Source of the DNA: Natrinema caseinilyticum
GTDB lineage: Archaea; Halobacteriota; Halobacteria; Halobacteriales; Natrialbaceae
Direction of reading: 5' to 3'
Assembly: GCF_024227435.1 (NCBI RefSeq)
Contig: NZ_CP100445.1
Location: forward strand, 1,857,369 to 1,921,368
DNA length: 64,000 nt
Shown: one piece after another, positions 22,793 through 26,143 of the stretch
Layout of the letters: each line of letters begins with the position of its first letter
Numbering within the stretch: the stretch's first letter is position 1
Program-made: the position numbers and the translations under genes
The notes under the pieces: generated by a model
Told to the model about the DNA's origin: nothing
Seen by the model: only the letters and a program-made list of their open reading frames with translations
Database searches by the model: none

Positions 22793-23854
22793 TCAGTCGA
22801 TGACGCCGGTTTTCGTCGCGACGTCTCGAGCCGCTCGCTCGTTCATCCCGTCGCCGAGGATCGTGTAGCGATCGCGGATCTCGTGGCAGGTCGTCAGCGC
22901 CTCGACGACGGTCTCGTCGTCGATGCCGAGTTCGGCTGCGGTCGTCGGGGCGTCGATACTCGAGAGCGCGGCCCGGATATCTCGCCAGATACCTCGATCC
23001 CCGCCGTGGAGATACGCGGTCATGATCGAGCCGACACCGACCTGATGACCGTGGAGGGCGGCGCCGGGCGCCAGCCGGTCGAGTTGATGAGAAAAGAGGT
23101 GTTCGGCGCCGCTCGCTGGCCGCGACGAGCCGGCGATGCTCATCGCGACGCCCGATGACATGAGCGCCTTCGTGACGATCCAGGCCGACTCCTCTAGCCC
23201 CGGCCGGATCAGGTCGGCGTTGTCCACGAGGATTTCGGCGGTCATTTCCGAGAGGGCGGCCGCGTACTCGGAGTACTCGACGTCTTGTAACCGCTTTGCG
23301 AGCCGCCAGTCCATCACGGCGGTGTAGTTGGAGATGATGTCGGCACAGCCAGCCGTCGTCAGCTCCCACGGCGCATTGGCGAGAATGCCGGTATCGGCGA
23401 CGACCGCGAGCGGTGGCTCGGCGGCGACGCTGTGGCGCGAATCCCCGTCCGGGACGGAGCCGCGATTGCTGACGATTCCGTCGTGGCTCGCCGCGGTCGG
23501 GACGGAGAGAAAGCCCATCTCGAGGTGGTAGCTCGCGAGTTTCGCGATGTCGATCGCTTTGCCGCCGCCGATTCCGACGAGGTACGTGGCCGCCTCCGTT
23601 TCGGCGATCTCGATTACGCGCTCGACAGCGTCGAACGTCGCCTTTTCGATCGTAACGATGGCTGGCTCGATTCCAGCGGCTTCGAAGTCGGCCGCGATCG
23701 GGTCCGCGGCGACCTCTCGAGGCGTCGGACTCGTGACGAACAGCGGCCGCCCCTGCAGATGGAGATCGTCGACCACGTCGACGACCTCGCTGCGAACGCC
23801 GTGACCAACGACAACGTTTCGCGGGAGGCGGATCCACGTCGACTTCTCGAACAT
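22793..23854 (-). CDS. egsA: sn-glycerol-1-phosphate dehydrogenase
   Basis: The 353-residue enzyme makes the sn-glycerol-1-phosphate backbone of archaeal membrane lipids from dihydroxyacetone phosphate with NAD(P)H. It belongs to the iron/zinc-type dehydrogenase superfamily. The nucleotide-binding motif is VGIGGGKAIDIAKL. FLSVPTAASHDGIVSNR is a family signature. Metal ligands are in the TAGCADIISNYTAV aspartate, the SGAEHLFSHQLD histidine and the LHGHQVGVG histidine. The start ATG at 23852-23854 gives the usual length; the open frame upstream is not coding. It is convergent with the ABC operon (47 bases) and divergent from the M48-like gene. Confidence 0.95.
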   Translation of the reverse strand: MFEKSTWIRLPRNVVVGHGVRSEVVDVVDDLHLQGRPLFVTSPTPREVAADPIAADFEAAGIEPAIVTIEKATFDAVERVIEIAETEAATYLVGIGGGKAIDIAKLASYHLEMGFLSVPTAASHDGIVSNRGSVPDGDSRHSVAAEPPLAVVADTGILANAPWELTTAGCADIISNYTAVMDWRLAKRLQDVEYSEYAAALSEMTAEILVDNADLIRPGLEESAWIVTKALMSSGVAMSIAGSSRPASGAEHLFSHQLDRLAPGAALHGHQVGVGSIMTAYLHGGDRGIWRDIRAALSSIDAPTTAAELGIDDETVVEALTTCHEIRDRYTILGDGMNERAARDVATKTGVID

Positions 23855-23987
23855 ACCTGACCCGACACACCCACGGGACATGTGCTTTTCCTCATCACCG
23901 CGGGGGTCAATACGAACACCGCCGTGACTCGAGACGACGGACCGGACGCTCGAGACCGACCGTTGGTTTCGACCCGATCGCCGATGG

Positions 23988-23997
23988 TATAGTATTT
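23988..23997 (+). promoter_or_regulatory. TATA-like element upstream of the M48-like gene
   Basis: The sequence tatagtattt is centred about 25 bases before an ATG at 24017. It points to that ATG as the original leaderless start, although the frame has a TGA eight codons later. Confidence 0.5.
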
Positions 23998-24067
23998 CCG
24001 ACGCCAATTTTCGAATATGATCGCTGCGTCCGTACTCTGACTCGGCCTGCTCGGTATCGGCTACGGT

Positions 24068-25096
24068 GTGGGAAGACTGTACGGGGTGTACTCGCTTCGA
24101 CGAGACGGCGACACCGAACACCGATCGCGCGGGACGTACCGAGTCCTGTTTCTCGTCGGAATCGGGGCCGGAATCGCCCTTACGCGTTCCGGACTGCTCG
24201 AGACGACCGAGGCCACGCTGTCGGCCGTCTATCCGACACTGGCAGCCGTGACGCCGCTCGTCTGGACCCCCGTATTCGCCGGTTCGATCGTCGTTGTCCT
24301 CGCGACGTACCTCGGAATCTTCCCGTACGCACGAACGCGTCGCGGACTCGAAATCAGCGCCGCGACAGCGGTCGCCCGTCTCGCCAAGTATCTCCTCGCA
24401 CTGACACTCTTCGTACTCGGGGTGTTCGGACTCGCGTCGGTGCTCCTCAGTGCGTCGGACCCACATCCAGTGCTGATCCCGGTCGTCTTCGTGGTCCTCA
24501 CGATCGGCGTCTACAGCTGGTCACAGTACCGAATACGGCTTACCCAAGCGATTTCGGAGCCGACCGACGATCACCGGCAGCGACTGGCGACCGCGGCCGA
24601 TCGGGCCTCCCTGACGGCGACGATCGAGGGCGTATTTCCGGGTCGTGAAACCGAGGTAGCCGGTCTCTATCTCGACGGACCGTTCTGGAACAGGCGCGTG
24701 TATGCAACCGATCACGCGTTCGACGTCCTCGACGACGACGAATTAACGGCGCTGTGTGCGCGTCTGAGCGCCGCCGACGAAGCGAAGATCCTCGAGCGAC
24801 AGGCGCTCACCGTCAGTGTGGCCTTCGGCCTGTTCGTAACGCTGTCCGTCTGGGTCTCGTTTCTGCTCGCACTCGCGGGCGTCGTCCTCGCGTGGCTGCT
24901 CCTCACCCGGCACCTCCAGCGCGTCGAGTTCGCCGCCGACCGCCGCGCGGCTCGAGCGGCCGAGGCCGATAGCCTCACGAGCGCGTACGAAACCGGCCAG
25001 AACCTGTCCGACGATCGGAGCCGGGTCCACGAACGGCTCGCATCGACGCCGTCGAGGGCACGACGGCTCGAGCGACTTCGAGAGATGGAAGCCTGA
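24068..25096 (+). CDS. M48-like membrane protein without a zinc-binding HEXXH motif
   Basis: The frame from GTG at 24068 gives 342 residues with four hydrophobic helices in the first 145 residues and two more near 255-290. The layout follows Ste24/HtpX-like M48 peptidases: YATDHAFDVLDDDELTALCARL stands where these enzymes have DDELxAVLAHExxH, and EFAADRRAA matches the third-ligand helix. The HEXXH itself is absent (ARLSAADEAK), so it should be catalytically inactive as a metalloprotease. The expected start is 51 bases upstream at 24017, where an in-frame TGA at 24038-24040 breaks a hydrophobic N-terminus (MIAASVL, stop, LGLLGIGYGVG). It may be a pseudogene or use the GTG. It ends exactly where the convergent SDR gene ends. 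Confidence 0.6.
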   Translation: MGRLYGVYSLRRDGDTEHRSRGTYRVLFLVGIGAGIALTRSGLLETTEATLSAVYPTLAAVTPLVWTPVFAGSIVVVLATYLGIFPYARTRRGLEISAATAVARLAKYLLALTLFVLGVFGLASVLLSASDPHPVLIPVVFVVLTIGVYSWSQYRIRLTQAISEPTDDHRQRLATAADRASLTATIEGVFPGRETEVAGLYLDGPFWNRRVYATDHAFDVLDDDELTALCARLSAADEAKILERQALTVSVAFGLFVTLSVWVSFLLALAGVVLAWLLLTRHLQRVEFAADRRAARAAEADSLTSAYETGQNLSDDRSRVHERLASTPSRARRLERLREMEA

Positions 25097-26143
25097 TCAG
25101 AACGTCTCGAGAATGCCGAGTACGCGCTCTTCGGCCTCTCGGTCCGGACCGATTTCGTCCCCGTTCCGGTCGCTCTCGAGGTGATCTTCGACCGTCCGGT
25201 CCATCGCCTCCACGAGCGGTGTCGACTCCCAGCCCAGTGCGGCGAGTTTTGCCGTCGAGAGGACGTGCGGGTAGGTCCGGTAGAGCGGATAGTCGTCGAG
25301 TTCGAGCCCGCCGGCCGCGAGTTCGCGGGGGCCGGCGTGGACGAGTTCGACGTCGCCCGCTCTCGGCTCGCTCTGCTCGCCGTTCGCGTGTTCCGTGGGG
25401 CTGTCCGCCACGTTACCCAGCGACTCGGCGATCAACTCGATCATCTCCGCGAGCGTCACGAGCCGCCGGTCGCCGACGTTGTAGGCCTCGCCGGCCGCGC
25501 CGCGTTCGGCGACGAGCCGGAGCGCGCTGGCGACGTCCGCGACGTAGACGCGGTGGCGGAGATTCGTCCCGTCCCCCGGAACGAGGATGCGGTCGAAGCG
25601 GTTGACGCGGTCGATCCACCAGTCCAGCCGTTCGGTGTAGTCGTGTGGCCCGTAGACGATCGGCGGGCGGACGACCATCGCACGGACTCCGTCCTCGGCC
25701 GCCGCGAACGCCGCCCGATCGCCCTCGGCCTTTCGATTGCCGTAGGTTTCGAAGGTGTCATCGACCGCTTGTTCGGCCGTACACGTCTCGAGCGGCGTTT
25801 CGCCTTCCCGCTTGGGAATCTCTTCGCGGCCGTACGCTGCACCGCTCGAAACGTAGACGTAGGCCTCGGAATCGTCGAATATCCGGGTTGCAGCCCGGAC
25901 GTCACTCGGGTGATAGACGACGCAGTCGAAGACCGCGTCGGGATCGACCGTCGTCGCGGCCGCCTCGAGAACCGTCTCGTTCGTCCTGTCGCCCTCGACG
26001 TGGTCGACGCGGTCGTCGTCCGCGTACGGATTCTCGCGATTACCTCGAGTGAGTAGCGTCACGTCGTATCCGTGATCCAGCAGTTCGGCGACGAGGTGCC
26101 GACCGATGAAGCGAGTGCCGCCGATGACGAGCGCGGTGTCCAT
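25097..26143 (-). CDS. NAD-dependent epimerase/dehydratase, extended SDR family
   Basis: The 348-residue protein has an N-terminal Rossmann fold with VIGGTRFIGRHLVAELL, the acidic residue DRVDHVEGDR, and the catalytic YxxxK as YGNRK near residue 140. PPIVYGPHDYTERLDWWIDR and YNVGDRRLVTLAEMIELIA follow. GGTRFIG at the N-terminus is typical of a haloarchaeal NAD-dependent epimerase subgroup related to chloroplast RNA-binding-like SDRs. The sugar or other substrate is not evident. It meets the M48-like gene end to end with no spacer. Confidence 0.88.
   Translation of the reverse strand: MDTALVIGGTRFIGRHLVAELLDHGYDVTLLTRGNRENPYADDDRVDHVEGDRTNETVLEAAATTVDPDAVFDCVVYHPSDVRAATRIFDDSEAYVYVSSGAAYGREEIPKREGETPLETCTAEQAVDDTFETYGNRKAEGDRAAFAAAEDGVRAMVVRPPIVYGPHDYTERLDWWIDRVNRFDRILVPGDGTNLRHRVYVADVASALRLVAERGAAGEAYNVGDRRLVTLAEMIELIAESLGNVADSPTEHANGEQSEPRAGDVELVHAGPRELAAGGLELDDYPLYRTYPHVLSTAKLAALGWESTPLVEAMDRTVEDHLESDRNGDEIGPDREAEERVLGILETF

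Follow-up and report, generated by a model that had tools for sequence, protein, structure and literature searches.

An in-frame stop codon in a haloarchaeal Ste24-like gene: probable recent loss in an old family of putative pseudoproteases

The question raised by this locus is whether a gene that carries a stop codon seven codons into its expected reading frame, and that lacks the zinc motif of the proteases it resembles, has recently been broken or begins further downstream. The gene encodes a membrane protein and occupies positions 24017–25096 (forward strand) of the 64,000-nucleotide stretch of Natrinema caseinilyticum DNA analysed here, referred to as the window, which spans C1:1857369-1921368 of the genome. 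A preliminary description had proposed an M48 pseudoenzyme, either recently broken or starting at the GTG at 24068. The comparison relied on 22 full-length orthologs (57–63% identity) found among 125 genomes of the family, 20 of them from the same genus and two from other genera.

The expected start was examined together with its promoter. A TATA-like element (TATAGTATTT, 23988–23997, forward strand) is located at −29 to −20 from the ATG at 24017, which fits a leaderless transcript. In most orthologs, the upstream region contains TTATAATATTTCCAAC-like elements with which TATAGTATTTCCGAC can be aligned, and nearly all 22 orthologs have a TATA-like element about 25–30 bases upstream of their ATG, the weakest being that of G015. 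Inspection of the corresponding DNA revealed an ATG at the position equivalent to 24017 in every ortholog, so that the promoter element and leaderless start proposed initially were borne out. The first hydrophobic helix (codons 1–19, 24017–24073, forward strand) is conserved in all orthologs, with a mean Kyte-Doolittle value of 1.79 in the window and of 1.4–2.05 in its relatives; it extends over residues 2–31 in the structural model of an intact ortholog (L006). Direct reading confirmed that a TGA (codon 8, 24038–24040, forward strand) interrupts this helix in its middle. At this codon, 22 of the 22 orthologs have TGG, from which TGA is a single change away, and the corresponding Trp8 is an invariant column of their alignment. 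A profile search over 293 genomes of the order reported the window copy as the sole full-length ortholog with an internal stop. Behind this TGA, the frame comprises 351 open codons up to the TGA at 25094–25096; the 342 codons given previously are right if counted from GTG 24068.

This GTG (24068–24070, forward strand) is the earliest codon downstream of the stop at which translation could restart. If the stop is real, a shortened protein missing the first helix could be made from it, as the GTG is in frame with the 342 open codons. The differences accumulated by the window gene are, moreover, more frequent at third codon positions (0.439) than at first (0.293) or second positions (0.219), with a third-position concentration ratio of 0.583 (0.51–0.61 in the other orthologs), indicating coding constraint over most of the branch. 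However, such constraint can predate the stop, the conserved first helix would be lost, and no Shine-Dalgarno-like sequence is visible by eye ahead of the GTG. A start codon is found at this position only in the window, the orthologs having ACT, ACA, GCN, GGN, AGC or AGT. We consider translation from this restart quite improbable. As the true start of the gene, GTG 24068 was ruled out by the orthologs: every one of them lacks a start codon at this position and keeps the upstream hydrophobic helix. This alternative in the preliminary description was thus not supported. Since no relative starts at the GTG position, ATG 24017 is, from the comparison of sequences, the ancestral start.

Full-length protein could also be obtained if UGA were read through as tryptophan or another residue, a reading to which the single base separating TGA from the replaced Trp codon and the intact downstream frame would lend themselves. 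However, the genome contains no tRNA-Sec scoring above the cut-off of the family, matches below this threshold occur in all control genomes as well, and TGA serves as an ordinary stop that ends both the interrupted gene and the adjoining epimerase gene. UGA recoding was rejected on the tRNA-Sec result, and readthrough in general appears extremely improbable.

The genomic neighbourhood was then compared across the genus. Upstream, a divergent gene at 22793–23860 (reverse strand), which we take from the appearance of its sequence to encode an EgsA-like sn-glycerol-1-phosphate dehydrogenase, is found in 29 of 29 genomes of the genus with 92–98% identity. Downstream, a convergent gene at 25097–26143 (reverse strand), presumably NAD-dependent epimerase-like by the same judgement, is found in 25 of 29. 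In G074 (L069, overlapping positions) and G066 (L059/L062), this epimerase gene gave two distinct matches and may be broken as well.

The interrupted gene has intact counterparts in 20 of the 28 other genomes of the genus and in two other genera, and is missing or decayed in eight of the 28 (G052, G054, G055, G067, G068, G071, G074 and G078). In G054, which a tree of the two flanking genes places as sister to the window genome (EgsA 98% identical), the spacer joins the equivalent of window position 23933 straight to that of 25056, and only the 3′ tail is left as a scar. About the last 21–25 codons remain in G068, while the first 70–80 codons are fused to the tail in G067. No remnant of the gene was found in the spacers of G052, G074, G078 and G055, the last of which branches beside G054 and the window genome; G071 has no copy beside EgsA, with just a weak match of 31 residues nearby. 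The gene is dispensable in the genus. Given this repeated loss, which includes the nearest relative, a nonsense mutation in the window lineage is unsurprising, and the stop fits ordinary gene loss through the recent decay of a dispensable gene.

The same comparison bears on the possibility that a single wrong base, introduced in sequencing or assembly, created an apparent TGA in a gene as intact as its orthologs. One such error would account for all that is seen in the window: a single substitution is enough to reopen the frame, the promoter, the start and the remaining 351 codons are intact, and the departures of the window copy at invariant columns are within the normal range. On the other hand, the sequence lies on a main contig of 3.94 Mb in a three-contig assembly of 99.8% completeness, and a real null allele would come as no surprise, the gene being absent from the sister G054 and from G055, a member of the same clade. 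An error is thus regarded as unlikely. The smallest contig of this assembly (L134, G000:C3:1000-12000) resembles the BREX-5 genes pglX and pglZ of haloarchaeal plasmids, with 76–82% identity.

To date the damage, we counted departures at columns that are invariant in all other sequences. The window copy shows five, stop included, compared with zero to nine for the intact orthologs in a leave-one-out analysis. With only four departures besides the stop, inside the intact range, the decay appears young, and an old decay was rejected on this basis. The window protein forms the longest branch of the ortholog tree, which may but need not reflect relaxation, since G070 and G073, both intact, show a similar excess over the species-tree expectation. 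The highest count, nine departures, belongs to the intact ortholog L020 of G072 and may reflect relaxed constraint in that genome. The recent break suggested by the preliminary description is in agreement with a TGA in an invariant Trp codon and with a lineage that is shedding the gene.

The ancestry of the protein was addressed by profile and structure comparisons. Pfam PF01435 gave 13.8 bits with the window protein, below its cut-off of 20.3, the protein was absent from the matches in its own genome, and the search for a better-matching family in Pfam or NCBIfam returned sub-threshold matches only. Profile-profile alignment of the orthologs with four HEXXH-bearing M48 proteins by hhalign yielded a probability of 98.6 (E 1.1e-15, 173 columns), and a profile of the orthologs plus distant relatives reached Ste24p among solved structures at E 1e-4. 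An AlphaFold2 model of moderate confidence, made for the intact ortholog L006 and not for the window protein (mean pLDDT 76.6, pTM 0.64), resembles ZMPSTE24 and Ste24p over residues 29–359 with Z-scores of 18.5–21.2: 21.2 for ZMPSTE24 (4aw6; rmsd 3.9 over 325 residues) and 19.0 for 4il3. Its similarity to soluble M48 proteins covers the catalytic part only (Z 5.8–9.3). The protein is, as far as profiles and a predicted fold can tell, M48 by descent with a Ste24 architecture. The M48 assignment made earlier is therefore backed, with the closest fold being more exactly that of Ste24 (M48A) than of M48 in general.

Where M48 proteins carry the zinc motif HEXXH, the window protein has RLSAA (24761–24775, forward strand), which aligns with HEFGH, HEVAH and HELAH of true M48 relatives. 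HEXXH is absent from the whole chain as well as from 22 of 22 orthologs, which harbor RxxAA-like residues in this column. The site of the third zinc ligand of M48, a glutamate, is represented by EFAAD (24926–24940, forward strand); its aspartate is kept throughout, while the glutamate is lost in four of the 22 (AFAAD). Both ARLSAAD in place of the zinc motif and the retained EFAADRRAA are thus present as initially read. In much of the wider HEXXH-less clade, this glutamate is replaced by V, I, R, L or F. Across the order, the search yielded relatives from 24 of 87 genera, in 64 of the 293 genomes; among the best of these, in which the motif was read, distant relatives have replacements such as SKAGR, IEAGK, VQAGR and LQAGR, and the glutamate is mostly absent too.

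A tree of 74 sequences was rooted on an HtpX-like protein and included HEXXH-less members from several haloarchaeal families. The HEXXH-less sequences, 50 in total, all group in a single clade (ultrafast bootstrap 100), with the HEVAH and HEFGH groups outside. On the simplest reading of this tree, HEXXH would have been lost once, before several haloarchaeal families separated, and the motif-less protein retained for a long time afterwards. As the HEXXH-less sequences are a single clade and the groups with a true motif fall outside it, the disappearance of the zinc motif and the appearance of the stop are separate events, of very different age. The absence of the motif noted in the preliminary description was therefore correct, but it is a clade-wide feature, older than the stop and separate from the break.

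Taken together, these data favor, with a probability of about 0.7, an old Ste24-fold pseudoprotease family, probably non-proteolytic, of which the window copy is a young pseudogene produced by a G-to-A change in the Trp8 codon. In the proposed sequence of events, the family would have kept the Ste24 membrane fold through a single ancient loss of HEXXH, and the intact orthologs, given this loss, are probably not proteases. The G-to-A change would have created a TGA at the invariant Trp8 codon, within the first transmembrane helix. Translation initiated at the conserved leaderless ATG would end after seven residues, and the gene most likely yields no functional protein. CAAX proteolysis and zinc binding are predicted to be absent from the family, given that HEXXH is missing. 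As the most likely function of the intact members, we propose that the Ste24 chamber would hold or guide polypeptides or lipids of the membrane and leave them uncut. In eukaryotes, Ste24 is described as freeing clogged translocons and monitoring the topology of membrane proteins (PMC10456885), and ZMPSTE24 cooperates with IFITM proteins in opposing the entry of viruses (PMC5744151).

An amidohydrolase gene (PF01979) lies a few bases downstream of a HEXXH-less Ste24-like gene, on the same strand, in three genomes that belong to two further families of haloarchaea (L087:113-1480, L088:169-1488, L089:2593-3717), suggesting co-transcription there. In one genome, a gene for an Rce1-like type II CAAX endopeptidase (PF02517) is located beside such a gene (L099:2614-3426). 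Both neighbours are leads to function only.

Taken by itself, the stop codon is ordinary; of greater interest is the old and widespread family of protease-like proteins that have lost the active site. The known pseudoproteases that have the fold of a membrane protease are mainly rhomboid examples, and in the part of the literature covered, on archaeal M48 pseudoproteases and haloarchaeal Ste24, no description of a Ste24-like pseudoprotease family was found. If confirmed, an old HEXXH-less Ste24 clade of single origin would provide a simple system for studying non-cutting roles of the Ste24 chamber, and a genus whose species range from an intact gene, through one fresh stop, to outright deletion would offer natural knock-outs.

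Among known systems, Ste24p and ZMPSTE24 (CAAX prenyl protease 1, MEROPS M48A) share with this family the predicted fold, a weak but significant profile match and an EFxxD-type helix. The family differs from them by the lack of HEXXH, hence of the two-histidine zinc site, and by an identity of only 12–15%; the first helix of the L006 model falls outside the reported range of the structural alignment. The haloarchaeal HEXXH-bearing M48 proteins (the L033 group with HEFGH, L125 and L129 with HEVAH) belong to the same tree and have a similar length and architecture and aligned motif columns, but both the zinc motif and EFxAD are preserved in them, whereas the clade of the window protein has RxxAA-like or other residues. 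HtpX (M48B), to which L001 and L002 of the window genome presumably belong from the appearance of their sequences, has in common the core of the M48 catalytic domain and the C-terminal helices; unlike the present family, HtpX-like proteins retain HELxH, and they are also shorter; the solved HtpX domain gives only a small fold match (Z 5.8, 86 residues). iRhoms, which kept a membrane protease fold after losing their catalytic residues (reviewed in PMC6451368), and other membrane pseudoproteases resemble the family in principle only, as protease folds that have outlived their catalytic residues. The rhomboid fold is unrelated and the ancestry is not common, so that the comparison concerns the way of working alone. 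By this analogy, we tentatively suggest that haloarchaea may possess an ancient and widespread group of Ste24-fold pseudoproteases, derived from one loss of the zinc site, whose non-catalytic client chamber could be comparable to that of iRhoms and which the window lineage would be discarding.
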